DNA from: Spirochaetota bacterium
GTDB lineage: Bacteria; Spirochaetota; Spirochaetia; Treponematales; UBA12059
NCBI GenBank assembly: GCA_018816345.1
Contig: JAHIWG010000076.1
Location: 1 to 33,019, forward strand
Direction: 5' to 3'
Length of the DNA stretch: 33,019 bases
Positions 18,443 to 28,885 of this stretch are shown one piece after another (the stretch's first letter is position 1; each line of letters opens with the position of its first letter). A program made the translations under genes and the position numbers. A model generated the notes under the pieces. The model was not told the origin of the DNA. It saw nothing but the letters and a program-made list of their open reading frames with translations, and did not search any database.

Positions 18443-18485
18443 GCTCGGCCCCGAGCGTAGGCCGCGCCTAGCCCCTGCCCTAGGC
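18443..18485 (-). terminator. Two GC hairpins at the end of the HD-domain gene
   Basis: GCCTAG (18466-18471) pairs with CTAGGC (18480-18485) across an eight-base loop that overlaps the stop codon. Just beyond it, GCTCGG (18443-18448) pairs with CCGAGC (18451-18456). There is no T-run, so intrinsic termination is uncertain. Confidence 0.3.
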
Positions 18486-19760
18486 CAGGAGCTCGGCCGC
18501 GGCCGCCGCGACTCGCCGGCCGCTATCGCCGGCCTCGTCCGCGGAATAGACCCGGAGCACCCGGAGCGATCGGGCGAACGAATCGACGACCTCGGGCCTG
18601 AAGACGGTCGCGTAGCTAGAGAAACACGAGCCCGAGCCGATTATTGGCAGGTCGGACTCGAAGGAGATGGGCTCGGGGACGTCGACGATGACCTCCCCTA
18701 CCCCGGCGAGCCTCGCTATCTCGTCCTCAACGCCTGGCCTGAGCCTAAGGTCGGCGACCTTCCGGTGCGCGGCGTTCCCGGGATCGAACGGCGACTCGAA
18801 ACGGGGCCTCGCGAGCGCTCCGTCGAAAACGGCGCGTATAAGGCCCCTGGCGTCCCTGCCTCCTTCGGCCATCAGCGCGTAGAACCCCGGGTCGTCGAGC
18901 CCGTACAGTTCCTCGGGTGCGACGTCTCCCGAGCCGAGGGCCCCGGCGACGGCCTTCTTTATCATCGCAGTCGCGGCGCGCACCGACCTGTGCCAATAGA
19001 CGGCCCGGTACATCTGGTACTTGGAGAACAGGACCGCCTCGACGGCCATCACGCCGCGCTCGCCTACGCCCGGACGTCCGGAATCGTCCAGCCCCACGTG
19101 CTGGAGCGTGAAATCCACGTCCTGTATCCCGTACGGGACCCCGCAGGCCCACGCGTCGCGGTTAAGGTAGTCTAGCTTATCCGGGTCGAGCACGCCCGAG
19201 AGCATGGCCCTGAAGAGCCCCAGCGCCCGGGATCCGGCCCCGGCGGGGCACGGCAGGTCCTGGTCGACTATAGCGGCGACGAACTCCGGATCGGCCCCGG
19301 CGGCCAGCACGGCTTCCCGTAGCGGCCCTCTCACGACGTCGGCGGTAAGGCTCTCGTGGTCCCTGAGCGGCAGCTCCTTGAGCGAATGGGCGTACGGGAA
19401 GTGACCGAGGTCGTGGCACAGGGCCGCAGCCAGGAAGCCCCGCGCGCCCGCCGCGTCGATATCCTCGAGCCCGTTCCTCGAGGCGAGGTTCTCCCTCGAG
19501 GCGAGGTTCTCCCTCGAGGCGAGGGCCGCGAGCGAGCGCTTCGCCATCTCGAAGACGCCGATCGAGTGAGCGCGCCGGGTATGGGTAGCCCCGGGATAGG
19601 TAAGATGGGCGGGCCCGAGCTGGAGGATGCGGGAAAGCTTGACGAATTCGGGGCTCGACAGGATGGCCGAGAATTCGGCGGGTATCATGACGTTACGCCA
19701 GAGCGGGTCTCGTACCGGCTCGTCGAACGATACGCCCAGGCGTATCCATAGGTCGTCCAT
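18480..19760 (-). CDS. HD-domain phosphohydrolase (COG1078/SAMHD1-like)
   Basis: This is a predicted metal-dependent phosphohydrolase of the YdhJ/SAMHD1-like group, whose members act on deoxynucleotides or related phosphates. The 426-residue product shows THTRRAHSIGVFEMAKR with His65, the HD pair His116-Asp117 in CHDLGHFPYAHSLKE, and the last metal ligand Asp192 in SGVLDPDKLDYLNRDAW. WHRSVRAATAMIKKAV and the family fold follow. A six-residue repeat (ASRENL) between His65 and the HD pair comes from an 18-bp tandem duplication. The gene stands alone, divergent from the lipoprotein gene at 19818. It ends 129 bases before the ComFB-type gene on the same strand. The substrate cannot be read from sequence. 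Confidence 0.9.
   Translation of the reverse strand: MDDLWIRLGVSFDEPVRDPLWRNVMIPAEFSAILSSPEFVKLSRILQLGPAHLTYPGATHTRRAHSIGVFEMAKRSLAALASRENLASRENLASRNGLEDIDAAGARGFLAAALCHDLGHFPYAHSLKELPLRDHESLTADVVRGPLREAVLAAGADPEFVAAIVDQDLPCPAGAGSRALGLFRAMLSGVLDPDKLDYLNRDAWACGVPYGIQDVDFTLQHVGLDDSGRPGVGERGVMAVEAVLFSKYQMYRAVYWHRSVRAATAMIKKAVAGALGSGDVAPEELYGLDDPGFYALMAEGGRDARGLIRAVFDGALARPRFESPFDPGNAAHRKVADLRLRPGVEDEIARLAGVGEVIVDVPEPISFESDLPIIGSGSCFSSYATVFRPEVVDSFARSLRVLRVYSADEAGDSGRRVAAAAAELLA
19477..19524. repeat. 18-bp tandem repeat inside the HD-domain gene
   Basis: The unit CTCGAGGCGAGGTTCTCC occurs at 19477-19494 and again at 19495-19512, followed by 12 bases of a third copy (19513-19524). It keeps the frame and adds ASRENL units near residues 81-98. 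The perfect identity suggests recent slippage. Confidence 0.9.
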
Positions 19761-19839: not shown

Positions 19840-20603
19840 GACCACGACGATACTATTACCTCTCCGCGCTCTTCGCCGCCTCGGCGGCGATGGTGGCATT
19901 CCTTCCTTCGTCGTGCGCGAGGCCCCCCGCTAAGCCTAGCGCGACGCCTCCTACGAGGCCCCTCTCGAAGCCCGAGGCGGCTCGGGGGGAAGCGACGCTC
20001 CCGGCGGTCCCGCCCGAAAGCCCCGGGGAACCCGCCCCGAGGAAAGCGCCCGTCGCGATGAAGCCGGCGGCGGTTACCGAGCCCGCGGGAGCCGCCAAGC
20101 CCAAGGCGACGCTGGCGGCCAGCCTAGGCGGCCCCGACAGGCGCCTGGCGCTCAGGCCCTTCGACGCGATACCCGCGGCGGACTTCGAGCTGGGCGAGCT
20201 CGTAGGCGGCGAGACGGAGCCGTCGCTCTCCGCGGCGCTCGGCGCGCTCGGGCTCTCCCTGGTCTCGGGCGAGCTTCCCCTCGACCTTTTCGCCGAGGGA
20301 GCGGCCGCCGCGGCCCGCGTCAGGTACGGGGAAACCGACTTCGAGGGCATAGGCTCTGTCCGCTTCTCGTCGCCGTCGTCGGAGTTCCCGGGCGTAGTCA
20401 GCGTCGGTATGCGCGCCTTGGCCGAACGTACGGCCTCCGGGGCCGACTCCTCCGGGGAGGCGCCGAGGAGCGCGCTCGGGCTCGCTATCCTGTCGCGGGG
20501 CGAGTCCGGCGAATGGACGATAGAGCATTTCGAATTGGACGTCGCGTCGCTCGGCATAGATGCCTCGAGGCCGGAACCCTGGGACCCGTACGGAACCCCC
20601 TAA
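19818..20603 (+). CDS. Putative lipoprotein of unknown function
   Basis: The 261-residue product starts with a basic segment (MMRRGLSRPRR), a hydrophobic stretch and PSSC, giving a probable lipidation Cys at 33; spirochaetal lipoboxes tolerate this form. Residues 34-100 are a Pro/Ala/Lys-rich linker. From about residue 101 there is a folded part with alternating strands (DRRLALRPFDAIPAADFEL, SLSAALGALGLSLVSGELPL, GESGEWTIEHFELDVASLG). I recognise no family. The ATG has no ribosome-binding site, and only 57 bases separate it from the divergent HD gene. It ends 109 bases before the PilZ-type gene on the same strand. The stop is TAA, one of only two in the window. Confidence 0.72.
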   Translation: MMRRGLSRPRRYYYLSALFAASAAMVAFLPSSCARPPAKPSATPPTRPLSKPEAARGEATLPAVPPESPGEPAPRKAPVAMKPAAVTEPAGAAKPKATLAASLGGPDRRLALRPFDAIPAADFELGELVGGETEPSLSAALGALGLSLVSGELPLDLFAEGAAAAARVRYGETDFEGIGSVRFSSPSSEFPGVVSVGMRALAERTASGADSSGEAPRSALGLAILSRGESGEWTIEHFELDVASLGIDASRPEPWDPYGTP

Positions 20604-20662
20604 GAGAACTGGGCGATTGCGTTGGCAGCATACAATAATCCAAATCGATTTCGACGAAAACG

Positions 20663-20691
20663 TTGAACAAAGTTCGCTTCTGCGGCACAAT
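20663..20691 (+). promoter_or_regulatory. Candidate promoter of the PilZ-type gene
   Basis: TTGAAC (20663-20668) and CACAAT (20686-20691) are 17 bases apart, with four matches each to the sigma-70 consensus. The predicted leader is about 15 bases and contains AGGAGG. The surrounding 80 bases are clearly more AT-rich than the genes. Confidence 0.4.
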
Positions 20692-20712
20692 ATGCCAGGA
20701 GGCATCTGTCGA

Positions 20713-21957
20713 ATGGCTACACCGGTGAAGAGCATAGAGCGCGAATTCCTCTTGGCGACGGCGATGCGGGAGAAATCCCGGATCGTGATGAGCGCGGGGG
20801 GCGGGGACTGGACGGTCAGGATCCTGGCCGTTGACAGGACCAAGGTCACGTTCGCCCACGAGATACCGCTCCAGCTACTCGGCAAGGGCTCGGCCTACGA
20901 CTTCCGCTATGACGTAAGGGGCCAGACCGTCGCCTTCAAGACCTCCATCACCGAGCCCGGGGAGAGGCGTTTCACCGCCGCGATGCCCGAGCAGGTATTC
21001 AAGAACCTGAGCCGACGCTTCCTGCGCATGCCGCCTCCCGGCGACCTGGCCGCCTCCTTCGCGTTCGCCGGAGAGCGCTTCGACCTCGATTTCCCGCCCA
21101 GCGCCGTATTCAACCCGGACAAGGAGCCCGAGGCCTCCCCCGACTTCGACCCCGCGGACCTGCGCGGGCTCATGGCCGAGTTCGAGCGCAAGGCGCTAGC
21201 CATCGCCAGCGACCGAGGCATCGTCATGTTCAAGGACAGGAAGCCTCAAAGCCCCGAGGAGCGCCTCGCCGCCGCCACCGGCCGCTGCTTCTACCTGCCT
21301 ACGGCCATCTCGGGCCTCCCCAAGAGCGATCCGTTCGCGGAGCGCACCATACTCACGAGGGACGACTTCCTGCAGTTCTACGTCGATTCGGGCGTAGAGC
21401 CCGAGTTCGCGGAGGCCGAGGTCGCGAAGCTGGAGAGGTCGAAGCGATCCTCGAGCGTGCTCTCGGAGCTCATAGTCCCCATACTGTTCCAGGATTACGC
21501 CATCGGCTACGCGTCGGTGGTTAATAAACAGGCCGGGAGGCCCCCCTTCGACCTCGGGGCGATAGAGACCTTCCAGGCGTTCGCGAGGGTATTCTCGTGG
21601 AGCCTCAAGCTGCACGGGTACTTCAAGGACGCGCCGAGGCTGGACGACGACTTCAGGCTACAGGTCGTGGACGTCTCCGCCGGGGGGCTCCTATTCGCGT
21701 GCGGCGAGCCGCGCCTCATCCAGGCGCTGAAGGAAGGCTCCTCCGTCACGGTCAGGCTGAACGCCAGGAGGCGGGCCGTCGACGCGAGCGGCACGATACG
21801 CAGGCACTACGCGGGCTCCAAGGAAGGGTATTTCGGCATCGAGTTCCATGCGATGGCCCCGGAGGATTTCAGGTTCCTTTTCGAATATCTCTACGGAAGG
21901 CCGTTCGGCGACGACGACTCGGACTCGGTGGAGGGCGCGCGCATCGTCGCCCCCTAG
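20713..21957 (+). CDS. PilZ-type cyclic-di-GMP effector candidate of a spirochaetal type
   Basis: The 414-residue product appears to have three parts. The first ~110 residues resemble a YcgR-like N-terminal barrel, ending in NLSRRFLRMP with an RxxxR at 101-105. A middle part (about 190-300) looks GAF-like (AGRPPFDLGAIETFQAFARV is its last helix region). The C-terminal ~100 residues have the PilZ signature DVSAGG (Asp320, Ser322, Gly325) followed by VTVRLNARRR and GYFGIEFHAM. In ordinary PilZ domains RxxxR and DxSxxG are about 25 residues apart; here they are over 200 apart. Spirochaetes have proteins of this kind (I believe annotated DUF1577/PilZ). The ATG follows AGGAGG by ten bases. It is cytoplasmic, with no membrane segment. 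Confidence 0.8.
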   Translation: MATPVKSIEREFLLATAMREKSRIVMSAGGGDWTVRILAVDRTKVTFAHEIPLQLLGKGSAYDFRYDVRGQTVAFKTSITEPGERRFTAAMPEQVFKNLSRRFLRMPPPGDLAASFAFAGERFDLDFPPSAVFNPDKEPEASPDFDPADLRGLMAEFERKALAIASDRGIVMFKDRKPQSPEERLAAATGRCFYLPTAISGLPKSDPFAERTILTRDDFLQFYVDSGVEPEFAEAEVAKLERSKRSSSVLSELIVPILFQDYAIGYASVVNKQAGRPPFDLGAIETFQAFARVFSWSLKLHGYFKDAPRLDDDFRLQVVDVSAGGLLFACGEPRLIQALKEGSSVTVRLNARRRAVDASGTIRRHYAGSKEGYFGIEFHAMAPEDFRFLFEYLYGRPFGDDDSDSVEGARIVAP

Positions 21958-21964
21958 GCGCTCA

Positions 21965-22044
21965 GGCGGCCGCCCGTGACCACTGGCTACCTAGCGTGAC
22001 TGCGGACTGCCAAGCGTGACCGCGGGCTGCCTAGCGCGCACCAG
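21965..22044. repeat. Degenerate 20-bp tandem repeat between convergent genes
   Basis: Four units of 20 bases lie head to tail (21965-21984, 21985-22004, 22005-22024, 22025-22044), with an approximate consensus GGCTGCCTAGCGTGACCGCG. Units two and three are the most alike; units one and four are diverged. They fill the space between the PilZ-type gene and the convergent HATPase gene. Confidence 0.7.
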
Positions 22045-22060
22045 GGCCTAGCTTGGGCCC
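22044..22060. terminator. Possible hairpin between convergent genes
   Basis: GGGCC (22044-22048) can pair with GGCCC (22056-22060) over a seven-base loop. It lies between two converging stop codons. The stem is only five pairs and no T-run follows, so the call is weak. Confidence 0.25.
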
Positions 22061-22078
22061 CGGCCGCCGCGCGGGAGC

Positions 22079-22636
22079 CTAGCCTATCGCGTGCTTCTTC
22101 TGAGGGAAGCTCTTGAGCATCGCGACGGCGTTCCTGGCGTCGTTGAACACGAAGCCCCCGTTCCAATACTCCAGGGCCGCGAACAGGGCGTTGCCGCCGT
22201 CGTTGTCGTCGCTCTTCTGCGTCCTAAAAGACACCCAGTCGGCCAGCTTCTCGAAGTCCTGGGCGGAGAGTATCTCGAGGCGCTTCCTATTGAAGTCGTT
22301 CCACTTCTCCATGTCCTTGAAGCCCTCGCCCTCGTCCTGGACGACCAGGTGAGCGTGCGTCGAGTCGAACGAGTACCAGACGCGGACCTTCTTGGCGGGC
22401 TCGCAGCGGTTGCCGTGCTTCACCGCGTTCTTGATCACCTCGCTTATCTGCTGCTCCAGCAGGTTGATCTCCTTGATCTCCAGCGGGGCCGACTGCACGA
22501 TGAGCAGGGTGAAGTACCTGATCTGCCTGTAATCGGAGGGGAACTCCTTGTAGAGCATGCCGGTCTTATCGAAGAGGGGGCTGTTCTCGTTTACCCTAAT
22601 TTCCTTGATGTCGCTCAGGTACGTCTTATCGGCCAT
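22079..22636 (-). CDS. HATPase anti-sigma-type regulator (RsbW-like)
   Basis: This is a 185-residue GHKL-type ATPase expected to phosphorylate or bind a STAS protein and to sequester a target, in the manner of RsbW/SpoIIAB. The N box is EQQISEVIKNAVKHGNR (61-77, with Glu66 and Asn70), and the G1 box is VVQDEGEGF (98-106). The glycine-rich G2 region is altered (NDGGNALFAALEYWNGG), so normal ATP-lid function is uncertain. The gene is last in the operon, 12 bases after the STAS gene. A good ribosome-binding site AGGAGAGGG precedes the ATG. No sigma-factor gene lies next to it, so the target is unknown. Confidence 0.85.
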   Translation of the reverse strand: MADKTYLSDIKEIRVNENSPLFDKTGMLYKEFPSDYRQIRYFTLLIVQSAPLEIKEINLLEQQISEVIKNAVKHGNRCEPAKKVRVWYSFDSTHAHLVVQDEGEGFKDMEKWNDFNRKRLEILSAQDFEKLADWVSFRTQKSDDNDGGNALFAALEYWNGGFVFNDARNAVAMLKSFPQKKHAIG

Positions 22637-22648
22637 GGTCGCCCTCTC

Positions 22649-22987
22649 CTAGTCTTCCATCTGCATGATAGCTTCCTCGATACTATTGGTGATCGGGAAG
22701 TAGCCCATGAGTTTCGTAAGCTCGATGACCTTCTTGACCGAGCCGTGGATGTTAGTGATGATCAACCTGAAGCTCATCTTCTTGATGGTAGAGCAGATAT
22801 AGATAAGCGCTCCTATTCCGCTCGAATCTATGTAATCGACGTTCTCCAGGTTGATGATGAAGCGCTCCACCTTCTTCTCGAGCATCTTCATCACCAGCTC
22901 CTTGAGCTTGTACGAGTTGTACAGATCCATCTCGCCGTTGACGTCTATTATATAATTATTGCCGTTCTTGCGGATCTTCAGCTCCAT
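22649..22987 (-). CDS. STAS anti-anti-sigma factor (RsbV-like)
   Basis: The 112-residue product is a single STAS domain. YIDSSGIGALIY (52-63) carries the phosphorylation site, probably Ser55, by comparison with SpoIIAA and RsbV. In the partner-switch scheme the neighbouring kinase phosphorylates it and the PP2C phosphatase encoded upstream removes the phosphate. It is unusually rich in Lys, Ile, Met and Asn, and the gene is clearly lower in G+C than its neighbours. It sits 17 bases after the phosphatase gene and 12 bases before the HATPase gene, and GGGGAAAGGGG precedes the ATG. The stop is TAG. Confidence 0.93.
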   Translation of the reverse strand: MELKIRKNGNNYIIDVNGEMDLYNSYKLKELVMKMLEKKVERFIINLENVDYIDSSGIGALIYICSTIKKMSFRLIITNIHGSVKKVIELTKLMGYFPITNSIEEAIMQMED

Positions 22988-23004
22988 GCGTCGGCCCCTT
23001 TCCC

Positions 23005-24954
23005 CTATAGCTTCATCTTGAAAACGAGCACCGTCTGGTCGTCGTGCTGGCGGGCGTCGCCTATGAAGGCCGCCACCTCCGCCCTGATCCTGCCGGCGAT
23101 GTCCTTAGGCGCGAGGTCCCGGTGCTTGGCTATCGCCTGCCCGAGGCTCTTCCTGCCGAACTGCTTGCCCTGCTCGTTCATCGCCTCCACGATGCCGTCC
23201 GTATACAGCGCGGCGATATCGCCGTCGTACAGGCGCAAGGCCTTGCGCTGGTACTCGGTCGCCTTCTCTACGCCTATCGGGACGCTCTTCGTATCTATCG
23301 TCTCTATAGTATCGGTCGCCCGCCTATAAACGAGGAGCGGCTGATGCGACGCGTTGGCGTACTCGAGCTCCCCTGAGCCTATATCGATGGCGACTATGCC
23401 GAGGGTGGCGTAATGGTCCATGTCGATCTTGCCCGTGATGCCGCGGTTCACCCAGTCGAGGACGGTGGCTATATCCCTGTTGGTATTGGTGATTAGGTGC
23501 AGGATAGACCGTATCATCACCATGATCAGCGCCGCCGAGACGCCCTTGCCGGCTACGTCGCCTATCACGCCCACTATCCTATCCTCGCGCGTGCGTATGA
23601 CGTCGTAATAGTCGCCCGACACGCCCCTGGCGGGGGCGGTGAACGCGCCAATGGCGAGGGAAGGGAACTGGGGAAGCTTCTTCGGGATTATGGTGCGCTG
23701 TATCTCCGCGGCTATGCCCGCGGACCGCTCGATGCCGCTCCGCTCGTTAGCCTCGAGGAACGAGAAGAAGTTGCTCACGGCCAGGGTGCCGAAGTTGGCC
23801 AGCAGCTTGCATCGGTCGAAGTCGGCCTCGTCGAAGCGCTCGCCTGGACGCGTCTTAACGACCGCCTGGACGCCGATTATCTTGTCCTCGACCATCAACG
23901 GCACCGCCATGAACGAGGAGATGCGCAGGAACTCCTCGTCGCCGTTAGCCACGAAACGGCCGTCGGCGGAGACGTCGGGGGCGAAGATGTTCTTCCCGGT
24001 CTTCGCCACGTCGCCGAAGATAGTCTCGCCTAGCCTGAACTGCGCGTGCCTCATATAGGACTCGACGCGGTTGGCCTTCCTCGGCAGGCTCTCGGGCAGG
24101 GCGAAGGGCGGAGGGAAGATACCGGAGTACGCCTTGGCGACGATGATGTCGTCGAACTCGTCGACGAGGAAGATCGAGCCCCCGTCTGCGCCCGTCTCCG
24201 AGATCAGCACGTCGTTCATGCTGCCGAGCACGTCCTCGGTGGAGAAGCTGCCCTTGAGCACCGTGCCGACTCGGAAGGACAGGTTGTACAGCGAGTCGAT
24301 CGACTCCTCGTAGTACGAGACCGCGGCGACCATCTCGCCGTCATGGATCCTCGAGCCCGCGAGGCCAACTAGCAGGAGCCACGCGTACGATACGGGCGCC
24401 GCGAGCCTCGCGAAGACCGGGTGCTCGTAGCCGAGCGCCAGCGACAGGCCCGCGTACGCGAGCAGGGCCGCGGATACCGGCAGCCACGTCTCGGCGAGCA
24501 GCCTCGAGGCCGTATCGCCGTCGTCGCGCTTATGCAGGGCGCCGGCGAGCCCGACCGCTACCGCGTCCGCCGCGAGGACGGCCCCGAACGCCGCGGCGGG
24601 GACGGCGACCGACAGGCCGAAGAAGACCGAGGCGGAATACAGACCCGCCGCGACGGCGTTTAGCGCTAGCGCGACCGCCAGATACGGCCTCATCGCGCGA
24701 TACGGCGCCATGACAATGAAGAGCACGATGCAGAGATAGGCTATATCGGTCAGGAGGAACGCTTCCTGCGCGGGGATAACGTAGAGCGCGAGGTCCCTCG
24801 CGGCGAGGAAGGAGGCTACAACGATGAAGGAGCCGGCCCGTCCCTCGGCGTCCTTCCTCCTGAGCGCGAAGAGCAACGCGCCGGCGCAAGCCAGCACGGC
24901 CAAGCGCGGAAGGAGCGGAGACGCGACGACCTGCATGAACGAATTGATGGTCAT
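23005..24954 (-). CDS. Membrane GAF-PP2C (RsbU-type) serine phosphatase
   Basis: This is a signal-responsive phosphatase that should dephosphorylate the STAS protein encoded next to it. The 649-residue product has about seven membrane segments in the first ~205 residues, a helical linker, a GAF-like sensor domain (GADGGSIFLVDEFDDIIVAK through ISSFMAVPLMVEDKIIGVQ) and a C-terminal SpoIIE/PP2C domain with GVSGDYYDVI, GVIGDVAGKGVSAAL, ALYTDGIVEA and HDDQTVLVF, which carry the metal-binding aspartates. The start is the ATG at 24952-24954 (MTINSF). An in-frame ATG 25 codons upstream lies before the predicted transcription start and is rejected. It heads the operon phosphatase-STAS-HATPase. Confidence 0.93.
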   Translation of the reverse strand: MTINSFMQVVASPLLPRLAVLACAGALLFALRRKDAEGRAGSFIVVASFLAARDLALYVIPAQEAFLLTDIAYLCIVLFIVMAPYRAMRPYLAVALALNAVAAGLYSASVFFGLSVAVPAAAFGAVLAADAVAVGLAGALHKRDDGDTASRLLAETWLPVSAALLAYAGLSLALGYEHPVFARLAAPVSYAWLLLVGLAGSRIHDGEMVAAVSYYEESIDSLYNLSFRVGTVLKGSFSTEDVLGSMNDVLISETGADGGSIFLVDEFDDIIVAKAYSGIFPPPFALPESLPRKANRVESYMRHAQFRLGETIFGDVAKTGKNIFAPDVSADGRFVANGDEEFLRISSFMAVPLMVEDKIIGVQAVVKTRPGERFDEADFDRCKLLANFGTLAVSNFFSFLEANERSGIERSAGIAAEIQRTIIPKKLPQFPSLAIGAFTAPARGVSGDYYDVIRTREDRIVGVIGDVAGKGVSAALIMVMIRSILHLITNTNRDIATVLDWVNRGITGKIDMDHYATLGIVAIDIGSGELEYANASHQPLLVYRRATDTIETIDTKSVPIGVEKATEYQRKALRLYDGDIAALYTDGIVEAMNEQGKQFGRKSLGQAIAKHRDLAPKDIAGRIRAEVAAFIGDARQHDDQTVLVFKMKL

Positions 24955-25019
24955 AGGGTTCCCTTGAGGCTTTACTGAAGCAGGAATGTCGTGGGACCGC
25001 TCTTGCCCGCTCGCTCGCA

Positions 25020-25049
25020 AGTGTAGCATGGCGAAAAAAATAACGTCAA
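25020..25049 (-). promoter_or_regulatory. Promoter of the phosphatase-STAS-HATPase operon
   Basis: On the minus strand TTGACG (25044-25049) and TACACT (25020-25025) are 18 bases apart, and TGC directly before TACACT makes an extended -10. A T-run lies in the spacer. Transcription would start near 25013, giving a leader of about 60 bases. Confidence 0.7.
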
Positions 25050-25142: not shown

Positions 25143-27917
25143 ATGGTCGACCCAATGTTGTACTGTTGCATAACCATCGATTATCTCTCCCAATTAGAGC
25201 GCTCCGGAGCGCTCGAGGCGGGAGCCATCATAGAGGAACTGAGATCGATAGCCGCCGCCTTCGGAGCCTCGGCCGGCCAGAAGAAGAGCCCCCTCGTCAT
25301 TACCTTGCCTACCGGCTCCATGTTCGACGGCGTCCAAGCCGCCGAGGCGATACGCCGCATGGTAAAGACCTTCGGCACCTACGAATCCCGGCTCAGGGGC
25401 GCCACGCTCGTGGTTCACGACGCCGATTCGCCCGAGGACGCGCTCGCCTACGCCGCCAGGGCCCGATACGGTCAGTGCGACGCCTACTCGTACTCCCTGA
25501 GCCCGCAGGCCAAGGCTGCGCTGTCGGACTATTTCGACTTCCAAGGCGATTCGTGGAGCCCGCCGCTCCACGAAACGGCACTCGCCGACGCCGACGCGGC
25601 GAGGCTATTCCACAGGCCGCGCCTCGAGGCGACGCTGGAGCGGGCGATAGCCAAGTCTGGACGCTCCGGGCCCAGGCTGGTGCACCTCGAGGCCGGGCCA
25701 GGGGCCCGCTCGGTCGAGGCGCTCGCGGAAGCCGTAGGCCTTCCCGAGGAGAGCCTGCTCGTCCTTAGCGGCGGCCGTCGCAGGCCGATCCCCTTCTCTC
25801 CGCTCGTAGAGGCTATCAGCGCGCGCGCCCCGTCCCCTACAGCCGCGGGCGGCGCCGAAGCGATACGCTTCGTGACCGCCTCCTCCTTTTCAGGCGGAGC
25901 GCCGGAATCCGTCGCGAAGGGATGCGCCGCCTATATCGACGCGTGGCTCGACGGCTTCGGCGAGTCCGGCGGCATCGTGGCCTGCGACGGCCCCGGGGGA
26001 TTCTCGCCCGAGGCCGCGGAGCTCATCGCCCGCAGGCTCTCGGGAGGGCGGGGAACCGAGCGCTACCTTTCGATAGCCGACGGCGGCCTCATCGACGGAT
26101 GGTCGGGACCCTGGGCCGCGCGCGTCCCGGCCGGCCTGGCCGACGCGGACGACAGGAAGGCGGCCGTGCGGAAAGCCCTCGGCGACTCCTCGGGAGCCGC
26201 CGGCGACGCCCTCCTGCATCGGTTCCGAGCCGTTTCTGGAATCGACCGAGATTCGACGGGCGGTTCGAGCTGCAGGGCGGCGCTAGGCGCCCTGCCTCGG
26301 GAGGCGGGACTCTACCTGTACGCGCTCGCCGTCGCGGAGAACGAGCTTTCCGTGGCAGAGCTGTCGGAATTCACGGGAGGCCTCGGCCTCCGGGCCGAGG
26401 GCGAGAGACTCCTCAAGGACCTGCTCGCGCGCGCCGGCCTCGTGGAACCGGTTGCCGCCAGGACGCCCATCCCCCTCGTCGACGCGCTATCGGTGGCGGA
26501 GGCCGTCGGCCGCGATAACGCGGAGGCGATTCAACGCCTGCTATCGAAATTCCTCATAGGGCTGTATAGGGGCGGGAGGATACGTCCTAGCCTCGGGTTC
26601 CTCTCGCGGGTCGGCGAGCTGGAGACCGAGGAGAGGCTCCTGTACGACTGCCTCTTCGAGGAGGTGACGCGGCCGGATAGGCCGCCCGTCGTAGACCCGT
26701 CCTTCCTCTCCCCGTCGTCGGCCAGCGTCTACCGCTTCTGGTCGGCCCTGACCTCCAAGGATCGGTCCGCGAGCGAGGCGGCCGGCGCCGCGATAGAGGA
26801 GCGGGTATCGGGGCCGAGGGCCCAGGCGGTCAAGGCGCTCGCCCGCGCCGAGCTCGCCTACTCCATCGGGGACCCGGAGCGGGCGTCCAAGGGAGCCCGC
26901 GAGTCGATGCTGGCGATGGGCAAGGGCGCCCCGCCGAGGCTAGAGGCGCGATCGCAGAGGATGATGGGGCTATCGGCGCTGGCCCTCGATAAGCATACGG
27001 AGGCCGCCGACTACCTTACTAACGCCCAGGAGCTATCCGAGACGGCGGGAGACGATTACGAGCGCATGATGGCGGCCTTCGCCAAGGCCGGCGTCGAATT
27101 CATATCCGGCGCCCTCGTCAAGGCGGCGAAGGCCGCGAACTGCGCCGAGGAGTCGGCCGCGCGGCTTTTCAGGATGGACGCGCTGGCGGCGATAGCCGCG
27201 CTCAGGGGGAGGATAGACCTCGAGCTCGGCGCGTACGACGAGGCCGCCAGACGCTTCTCGTCCATCTCCGAGATAGCCCGCGAATACGGCATGCCCGGCA
27301 CGGGACGGCGCGCGACTATCTGGCGGGCCAGGGCCCTGGCGTTCGCCGGAGAGTACGACGAGGCCGTCGCCGCCCTCGAGGACGAGTCTAGCGACGCGGA
27401 GGCCAGGGCCTTCCGAGGCGAGCTCGAGATACTGAGGGGCAGGCCCCGCGAGGCCAGGGCCTGGCTCGACTCCCCCGAGGAACCCGCGGTACGGGCCTTC
27501 GCCCCGCCCGACTCGTTCGAGTGGGATAGCCTGTTCTCCGAATTCGAGGGCAGGTGCATAGGCTTCGGCTCGGCCAACGCCCCGCTGGCCGATTTCAGGA
27601 CGGCCCTGTCGCTGTTCGCCAAGGGCCTCGACGAGAGGGATCCCGCCTGCGCCTCGGAGCTCCACGCGATGACGCGCTCCGAGCGCGGCTCCAAGAACGA
27701 CCCGGGCGTAGGCACCTACGGCTTCTTCTGCTACCTCCTCGAGGAACGCCTCGCCGATCCGCCCGTCGATAAGCAGACCGTCCTCTCCAGGGCGTTCAAG
27801 ATACTGCAGCAGCGCGCCGGCCGCATCGAGGACCGGGCGCAACGAGCCCTATACATGGAGAAGAACGCGTGGAACAAGCGGCTCATGGAAGCCGCGCGCA
27901 CGCACAAATTCATATGA
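25143..27917 (+). CDS. Large TPR protein, apparent STAND/cyclase relative with degenerate ATPase motifs
   Basis: The 924-residue product follows the plan of bacterial cyclase-STAND-TPR regulators. Residues 1-135 resemble a degenerate class III cyclase fold (ending YSLSPQAKAALSDYFDF). RPRLEATLERAIAKSG (158-173) matches the segment before a STAND P-loop. The P-loop itself is LEAGPGARSVEAL (182-194), where the invariant GKS/GKT is lost. The Walker B-like VACDGPGGFSPEAAELI lacks the second acidic residue. The C-terminal half (about 540-900) is helical TPR-like repeats such as SQRMMGLSALALDKHTEAAD and RRATIWRARALAFAGEYDE. It is thus probably a non-hydrolysing scaffold; the function is unknown. It may start at this ATG or at the ATG at 25155. 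Its TGA overlaps the next start (ATGA at 27914-27917). Confidence 0.78.
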   Translation: MVDPMLYCCITIDYLSQLERSGALEAGAIIEELRSIAAAFGASAGQKKSPLVITLPTGSMFDGVQAAEAIRRMVKTFGTYESRLRGATLVVHDADSPEDALAYAARARYGQCDAYSYSLSPQAKAALSDYFDFQGDSWSPPLHETALADADAARLFHRPRLEATLERAIAKSGRSGPRLVHLEAGPGARSVEALAEAVGLPEESLLVLSGGRRRPIPFSPLVEAISARAPSPTAAGGAEAIRFVTASSFSGGAPESVAKGCAAYIDAWLDGFGESGGIVACDGPGGFSPEAAELIARRLSGGRGTERYLSIADGGLIDGWSGPWAARVPAGLADADDRKAAVRKALGDSSGAAGDALLHRFRAVSGIDRDSTGGSSCRAALGALPREAGLYLYALAVAENELSVAELSEFTGGLGLRAEGERLLKDLLARAGLVEPVAARTPIPLVDALSVAEAVGRDNAEAIQRLLSKFLIGLYRGGRIRPSLGFLSRVGELETEERLLYDCLFEEVTRPDRPPVVDPSFLSPSSASVYRFWSALTSKDRSASEAAGAAIEERVSGPRAQAVKALARAELAYSIGDPERASKGARESMLAMGKGAPPRLEARSQRMMGLSALALDKHTEAADYLTNAQELSETAGDDYERMMAAFAKAGVEFISGALVKAAKAANCAEESAARLFRMDALAAIAALRGRIDLELGAYDEAARRFSSISEIAREYGMPGTGRRATIWRARALAFAGEYDEAVAALEDESSDAEARAFRGELEILRGRPREARAWLDSPEEPAVRAFAPPDSFEWDSLFSEFEGRCIGFGSANAPLADFRTALSLFAKGLDERDPACASELHAMTRSERGSKNDPGVGTYGFFCYLLEERLADPPVDKQTVLSRAFKILQQRAGRIEDRAQRALYMEKNAWNKRLMEAARTHKFI

Positions 27918-28885
27918 GCCAGGACATACGATACCTAGAAGCGGCCTGCTACCACGCGGCCCCCGGATTCATGGAGCACCTGGAAGGCGAGCTTCCCGAG
28001 CCGTACCGCAGGGACGGAGAGCTCCTGACGGTCATGGGCCCGCTTCGGGAGGCGTACTGGACGAGGAACGTCTGGCGGCGCCCCTTCACGGCCGAATTCG
28101 GCTCGATCTCCGAGGCCGCAAAGATACTCCGCGGCTTGCAGCGCAATTGGGCGCCCTACCCCGTGAAGCTCGCCAGGAGGACGGCGCTGATAGCCGAGTC
28201 TCTGCCGCCCCTGCCGTCCAAGCCTAAGGCCTTCCCCTTCCGGGTCCCCGGCTCCCCGATGGGGGCCTTCACCCTGCTCGACGAGCACACGCTCCTCGCG
28301 TCGGCCGAATGCTCCAGCCCGTGGCCCAACGGGGAGCTCGGCTTCGACGAGGACAAGGAAGGCCCGCCTAGCCGCGCCTACCGCAAGCTATGGGAGGCCC
28401 TCGTGATGGCGGGGTCGATGCCCGGTCCCGGGCAGCGCTGCGTCGACGCCGGAGCCTGCCCCGGCGGCTGGACCTGGGCTCTCGCGGGGCTCGGGGCCGA
28501 GGTCGTAGCCATCGACCGCGCGCCTATTGACGATAGGGTCGCGGCGATGCCCGGGGTCACCTTCCTCAAGCATAACGCGTTCACGCTCAAGCCCGGGGAC
28601 ATAGGGCCCGTGGATTGGTTCTGTTCCGACGTCATTTGCTATCCGCCCACGCTGTTCGACTGGGTCTCCACGTGGCTCGAGTCCGGGCTAGCCCGTAACT
28701 TCATATGCACCATTAAGATGCAGGGCAAGGAATGGGACAGGCCGACGGTGGAGCGCTTCGCCGCCATCCCCGGCTCCCGCGTCGCGCACCTGTGGCATAA
28801 CAAGCACGAGCTGACGTGGAGCCTCGTCAGGGACGCCCCGGACGGACTCGCCCTGCGGGAAATTCCCGATCATCGCGTCGATTAG
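27914..28885 (+). CDS. RlmM-like 23S rRNA 2'-O-methyltransferase
   Basis: This is a SAM-dependent ribose methyltransferase of the FtsJ/RlmM type; RlmM modifies C2498 of 23S rRNA in E. coli. The 323-residue product has an N-terminal RNA-binding-like part (about 1-125) and a Rossmann methyltransferase domain with the SAM motif VDAGACPGGWTWAL (177-190). The K-D-K-E tetrad typical of FtsJ-type enzymes is visible: Lys158 (SRAYRKLWEAL), Asp239 (CSDVICYP), Lys268 (CTIKMQG) and the Glu in NKHELTWSL. It is about 40 residues shorter than E. coli RlmM. The ATG overlaps the upstream TPR gene's stop and has no ribosome-binding site of its own, so translation is probably coupled. The stop is TAG. Confidence 0.88.
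   Translation: MSQDIRYLEAACYHAAPGFMEHLEGELPEPYRRDGELLTVMGPLREAYWTRNVWRRPFTAEFGSISEAAKILRGLQRNWAPYPVKLARRTALIAESLPPLPSKPKAFPFRVPGSPMGAFTLLDEHTLLASAECSSPWPNGELGFDEDKEGPPSRAYRKLWEALVMAGSMPGPGQRCVDAGACPGGWTWALAGLGAEVVAIDRAPIDDRVAAMPGVTFLKHNAFTLKPGDIGPVDWFCSDVICYPPTLFDWVSTWLESGLARNFICTIKMQGKEWDRPTVERFAAIPGSRVAHLWHNKHELTWSLVRDAPDGLALREIPDHRVD

Follow-up and report, generated by a model that had tools for sequence, protein, structure and literature searches.

Locus and gene content

The stretch of DNA analysed here, 33,019 nucleotides from a Spirochaetota genome and referred to below as the window, contains an intact open reading frame of 924 amino acids with an upstream ATG at position 25143. Because the starts of its homologues fall at an internal ATG at 25155 (MLYCC...) and not at 25143, the protein encoded in the window likely has 920 residues, and all residue numbers given below are counted from 25155. 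An initial annotation of this DNA had described the gene as long and intact, which the 924 open codons confirm, although the start codon it used probably has to be corrected to 25155. The features of the gene and of its surroundings are as follows:

20560-21957, forward: PilZ protein, weakly similar to GAF/DUF1577; its place in many members of the class is directly upstream of the family gene
22079-22636, reverse: HATPase_c_2 (RsbW-like) protein (Pfam 1.7e-9)
22649-22987, reverse: STAS-domain, anti-anti-sigma-like protein (Pfam STAS 7.6e-23)
23005-25029, reverse: GAF-SpoIIE (PP2C) phosphatase, a conserved divergent neighbour
25143-27917, forward: open reading frame, 924 aa, intact
25155-27917, forward: predicted pseudo-cyclase/pseudo-STAND/TPR protein, 920 aa (open reading frame, homologue starts and family alignment A1)
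25155-25550, forward: residues 1-132, N-terminal domain of class III cyclase fold without the metal-binding acids (AF2, Foldseek, VIA, profile match and position tally)
25551-26324, forward: residues 133-390, degenerate STAND/AAA_16-like NTPase domain (hhalign and AAA_16 matches of homologues)
25692-25715, forward: residues 180-187, P-loop position, AGPGARSV in place of GxxxxGK[ST]
25971-25988, forward: Walker B strand GIVACD, with the acid D278 kept
26325-26744, forward: residues 391-530, helical linker (model, and a weak match to the region behind the STAND core, hhalign E 0.0027)
26745-27914, forward: residues 531-920, MalT/Rap-like TPR superhelix with C-terminal cap (TPR_MalT 1.4e-6, VIA)
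27914-28885, forward: FtsJ/RlmM-like rRNA methyltransferase (Pfam FtsJ 1.4e-10; RlmM model below cut-off), with an ATGA overlap

An HD-domain protein with a match to HD_assoc_2 is encoded at 18480-19760 on the reverse strand, near the signalling genes.

Homology to cyclase-STAND-TPR regulators

Searched on its own, the window protein matched only TPR models in Pfam and only TPR proteins in a sequence search of the PDB. An assignment to a defence system was dropped when the Pfam, NCBIfam and PADLOC scans returned TPR matches or nothing. Three homologues (L015-L017) do match AAA_16, with E-values down to 3.1e-10. Since a HMMER search with the family profile against 20 loci carrying paralogues or AAA proteins gave no match, profile-profile comparison was needed, and we used hhalign to compare the profile of 40 family members (A1) with a reference (A2) built from nine cyclase-STAND-TPR proteins of the same bacterial group, including the intact L105 protein encoded by the window's own genome. 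The two are colinear over 864 columns (probability 99, E 7.5e-18). Compared domain by domain, the N-terminal part pairs with the cyclase domain (E 2.2e-5), the middle part with the STAND core (E 4.4e-6) and the C-terminal part with the TPR region (E 7e-10), each of these E-values referring to a single comparison, while none of the off-diagonal domain pairs or column shuffles reached significance. A profile of the family's N domains (n = 75) likewise scored 38.8 against one of cyclases (n = 45), with 40 shuffles giving 14.6 or less, and the family profile, which includes no intact cyclase, matches an intact cyclase-STAND-TPR protein (GEAGIGKS) in the genome of a relative at E 3.5e-8 over residues 96-376. 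These alignments, together with the models described below, bear out the order of segments put forward in the initial annotation, and show the homologous NTPase core ahead of a TPR superhelix by which a protein belongs to the STAND evolutionary family.

The genome from which the window derives (G000, 3.8 Mb) thus carries an intact paralogue (L105:1489-4482, reverse strand, with GEPGIGKT, VDN and the cyclase acids) alongside the degenerate protein. The same genome has seventeen matches to class III cyclase domains, and there are up to 29 in one relative.

Structural models

Structure prediction followed by a fold search had been proposed as a check on the STAND assignment, and this did recover a STAND-TPR protein: the model of the whole protein has a mean pLDDT of 91.5 and its top Foldseek match is 6mfv. 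The corresponding VIA list for the whole protein is dominated by the TPR part and says nothing on the STAND core. In that part, tandem TPR helical hairpins form a superhelix that superimposes on MalT domain III (VIA Z 26.1, rmsd 4.2 over 325 residues) and on the Rap/NprR/AimR receptors (Z up to 26.9, rmsd 5.2 over 336 residues). Modelled alone, the N domain (AF2 pLDDT 95.1) adopts the fold of a class III nucleotidyl cyclase homology domain; its top Foldseek matches are class III cyclases, and the top 50 VIA entries are all cyclases, at Z-scores of about 11-12 over 126-134 of its 135 residues. The highest of these is human soluble adenylyl cyclase, residues 292-465 (Z 12.3, rmsd 2.8, 132 residues), which ties with other cyclases.

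State of the cyclase and STAND active sites

The two metal-binding aspartates of a class III cyclase enzyme are absent from the window protein, as had been suspected at the outset. The first site is occupied by I6 and is neither D nor E in any of the 75 N domains, its position, just outside the stretch aligned by hhalign, having been placed by ungapped extension; the second is S45 in the window and acidic in 20 of 75. Most of the segment that bears the base-selecting and transition-state residues in intact proteins falls opposite gaps in the family.

In the STAND core, AGPGARSV stands in register with the GEPGIGKT of intact relatives, so that substitutions have removed the two glycines, the lysine and the S/T that define the motif. 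The degenerate P-loop (GPGARS) that had been read from the DNA is therefore real, and the GxxxxGK[ST] signature of a catalytically competent STAND NTPase is missing. The initial annotation had suggested aligning the spirochaete homologues over this loop: an intact GxxxxGK[ST] was found in 0 of 40 order-level and 4 of 39 class-level homologues (4 of 79 overall), and GxxxxGK is kept in 16 of 79. The four members with an intact loop (L122, L143, L145 and L156) belong to an otherwise degenerate family; of these, L143 has a match to AAA_16 and L145 to both AAA_16 and NACHT. On a tree based on the TPR region they are scattered, requiring a minimum of four state changes, for which the tree gives no root. 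Because these members are scattered and chance regain is unlikely, the natural reading of the alignment is that the P-loop has been lost repeatedly and long ago, and that its loss is not peculiar to the window sequence.

The Walker B motif tells a different story from the one first proposed, in which CDGPGG was taken to have one acid missing. The second position is indeed a glycine, but the intact paralogue of the same genome reads VDN and so also has a single acid, for which reason a single acid here is weak evidence and cannot be counted as a loss. D278 occupies the site of that acid in intact paralogues, and 52 of 79 members have an acid at this position.

From these substitutions we consider it probable that the window protein has lost the ability to bind ATP. 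The main alternative is a non-canonical mode of nucleotide binding through which the protein would still work as a switch, a behaviour seen in some pseudo-ATPases. It draws on the retained D278, the partly or fully preserved loops of other members and the AAA_16 matches of homologues; we regard it as unlikely, given a window loop with substitutions at all four defining positions, the want of a single intact loop among the order-level homologues, and the Treponema-like members, from which most of the P-loop region is absent. The four class members with an intact loop may be active ATPases, in which case nucleotide independence would not extend to the whole family.

Genomic neighbourhood

The genes for the STAS, HATPase_c_2 and PP2C/SpoIIE proteins lie together at 22079-25029, the composition of a partner-switch (Rsb-type) module. 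Relatives of the PilZ, HATPase, STAS and SpoIIE genes, or a gene for a small PilZ protein, flank the family gene in 32 of 39 class-level loci, mostly in divergent orientation or directly upstream, as against 0 of 52 control loci, which were centred mostly on cyclase/AAA genes and were shorter (4.9 versus 6.4 kb), the neighbour clusters having been chosen for recurrence. The block at 20560-25029 in the window, directly upstream of the family gene and with PilZ, HATPase_c_2, STAS and GAF-SpoIIE genes, has a partner-switch-like make-up, and throughout the class its relatives are found beside the family gene. As judged from gene order, the main genomic partner of the family is this partner-switch/PilZ gene set.

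In the Treponema-like families f3 and f5 the family gene is kept outside any PilZ/partner-switch neighbourhood and has other neighbours. In one Treponema-like genus (L040:3-5371, L042, L045) it is immediately preceded by fliI and fliJ and followed by a gene of glycoside hydrolase family 3. This position would suit a motility factor working with the flagellar export or collar apparatus, and TPR proteins reportedly figure in the literature on the Borrelia flagellar collar (e.g. PMC8609358). We nevertheless hold such a role to be rather improbable, as the fliI-fliJ position is confined to a single genus and Borrelia genomes match over a TPR stretch of roughly 60 residues only (E about 1e-5), a match that we judged unspecific; a link to the Borrelia collar proteins was rejected for this reason.

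The start of the methyltransferase gene overlaps the stop of the family gene (ATGA, 27914-27917), in agreement with the coupling of the two genes noted in the initial annotation. A targeting or chaperone subunit that helps the RlmM-like methyltransferase to modify the ribosome would fit this overlap, and also the presence of the methyltransferase downstream in nearly all those loci of families f1 and f4 that are long enough to show it. The arrangement is restricted to these two families, however; the methyltransferase adjoins the family gene in 0 of 39 class-level loci and in none of the Treponema-like ones, which makes the link lineage-restricted and such a function very unlikely.

Distribution and selection

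Among 59 genomes of relatives of the window's bacterium, 41 encode a homologue of the protein, about one each. Within the class, the A1 profile matches up to 151 of 248 Spirochaetia genomes and 77 of 102 genera, counts that are upper bounds since the weakest matches, including Borrelia-like ones, cover the TPR region only; 97 of the 248 genomes gave no match. Because matches outside Spirochaetia are limited to the TPR region, the full-length family appears to be confined to this class. A search of plasmids gave no match.

Pairwise dN/dS values are about 0.1-0.35 in the N and middle domains and about 0.1-0.2 in the TPR part, indicating purifying selection throughout: the apparently dead domains are not drifting freely, and the TPR part is usually under the tighter constraint. 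All the order-level matches listed, and nearly all those at class level, have an intact reading frame, and a reduced genome of 1.14 Mb (G032) retains the gene. That the gene is decaying and heading for loss, as two degenerate catalytic centres and the 97 genomes with no match might suggest, is barely credible in view of these intact frames, its retention in the reduced genome, a fold predicted with high confidence and, above all, dN/dS well below 1 in all domains, which contradicts it.

Discussion

The window protein is very likely a catalytically degenerate relative of the cyclase-STAND-TPR regulators, and its identity as a pseudoenzyme is well supported by the sequence comparisons. The proposal in the initial annotation that a pseudo-STAND protein has kept its fold is upheld by the match to 6mfv, the loop alignment and the colinear homology with intact enzymes, while the word scaffold, as used there, goes a step further and is our inference as well. 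In kind the system is not new: the architecture is a known one, of which this family is a catalytically degenerate variant. In the literature on pseudo-STAND proteins, degenerate Walker A motifs and spirochaete partner switching we found no description of it beyond the mention of tp0123, a probable member, as a TPR protein.

Its closest known counterparts are the cyclase-STAND-TPR regulators of the same bacteria (e.g. L105, GEPGIGKT), which have the same domain order and align with it from end to end at the profile level; these regulators keep the metal acids (FADL, YIGDA), the P-loop and Walker B, whereas the present family is without the cyclase motifs and has nearly always lost its P-loop. 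The architecture of the transcription activator MalT and of 6mfv, with a TPR superhelix after the STAND core, resembles that of the window protein. A point of difference is that MalT is an ATP-binding protein with a DNA-binding domain of the LuxR type, for which Pfam found no counterpart in the window protein. With the Rap/NprR/AimR peptide receptors, in which cyclase and STAND domains are lacking, the window protein shares the TPR superhelix as a fold only. In human soluble adenylyl cyclase (ADCY10), a STAND domain with a P-loop is predicted behind the cyclase domains (PMC12802110). The likeness lies in this order and in the fold match of the N domain to residues 292-465; the difference is that ADCY10 is catalytically active and has two cyclase domains. 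In Treponema pallidum, tp0123 is listed as a 'hypothetical protein containing TPR domains' (PMC2217670), the only form in which it is published in the literature found, and it is probably the orthologue represented by L041, whose neighbours are pckA and ychF.

The explanation that we favour, with some reserve, is that of a double pseudoenzyme, in which a class III cyclase and a STAND core, both disabled, are mounted on a MalT/Rap-like TPR superhelix and together serve as a nucleotide-independent scaffold of a PilZ/partner-switch circuit. Such a protein would make no cyclic nucleotide and would not be switched by ATP binding; its TPR superhelix would engage a partner, either a protein or a peptide, and dimerisation or docking would take place on the surfaces of the two dead domains. 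It could then act as a scaffold or sensor of the adjoining partner-switch circuit, which may take c-di-GMP input through PilZ. The part played in this circuit, taken by itself, is a tentative proposal drawn from the conserved neighbourhood. More speculative still is the broader picture of a Spirochaete-specific hub in which a dead cyclase and a dead STAND domain, the latter after repeated loss of the P-loop, have replaced second messenger and ATP switch with pure protein-protein scaffolding that links PilZ/c-di-GMP to the STAS-HATPase-SpoIIE proteins.

STAND proteins are normally ATP switches, and the family, if the preferred explanation is right, would show that their architecture can also be used as a scaffold. 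A conserved protein of the spirochaetes, apparently kept in the reduced genome of the agent of syphilis, would moreover gain a role open to testing.
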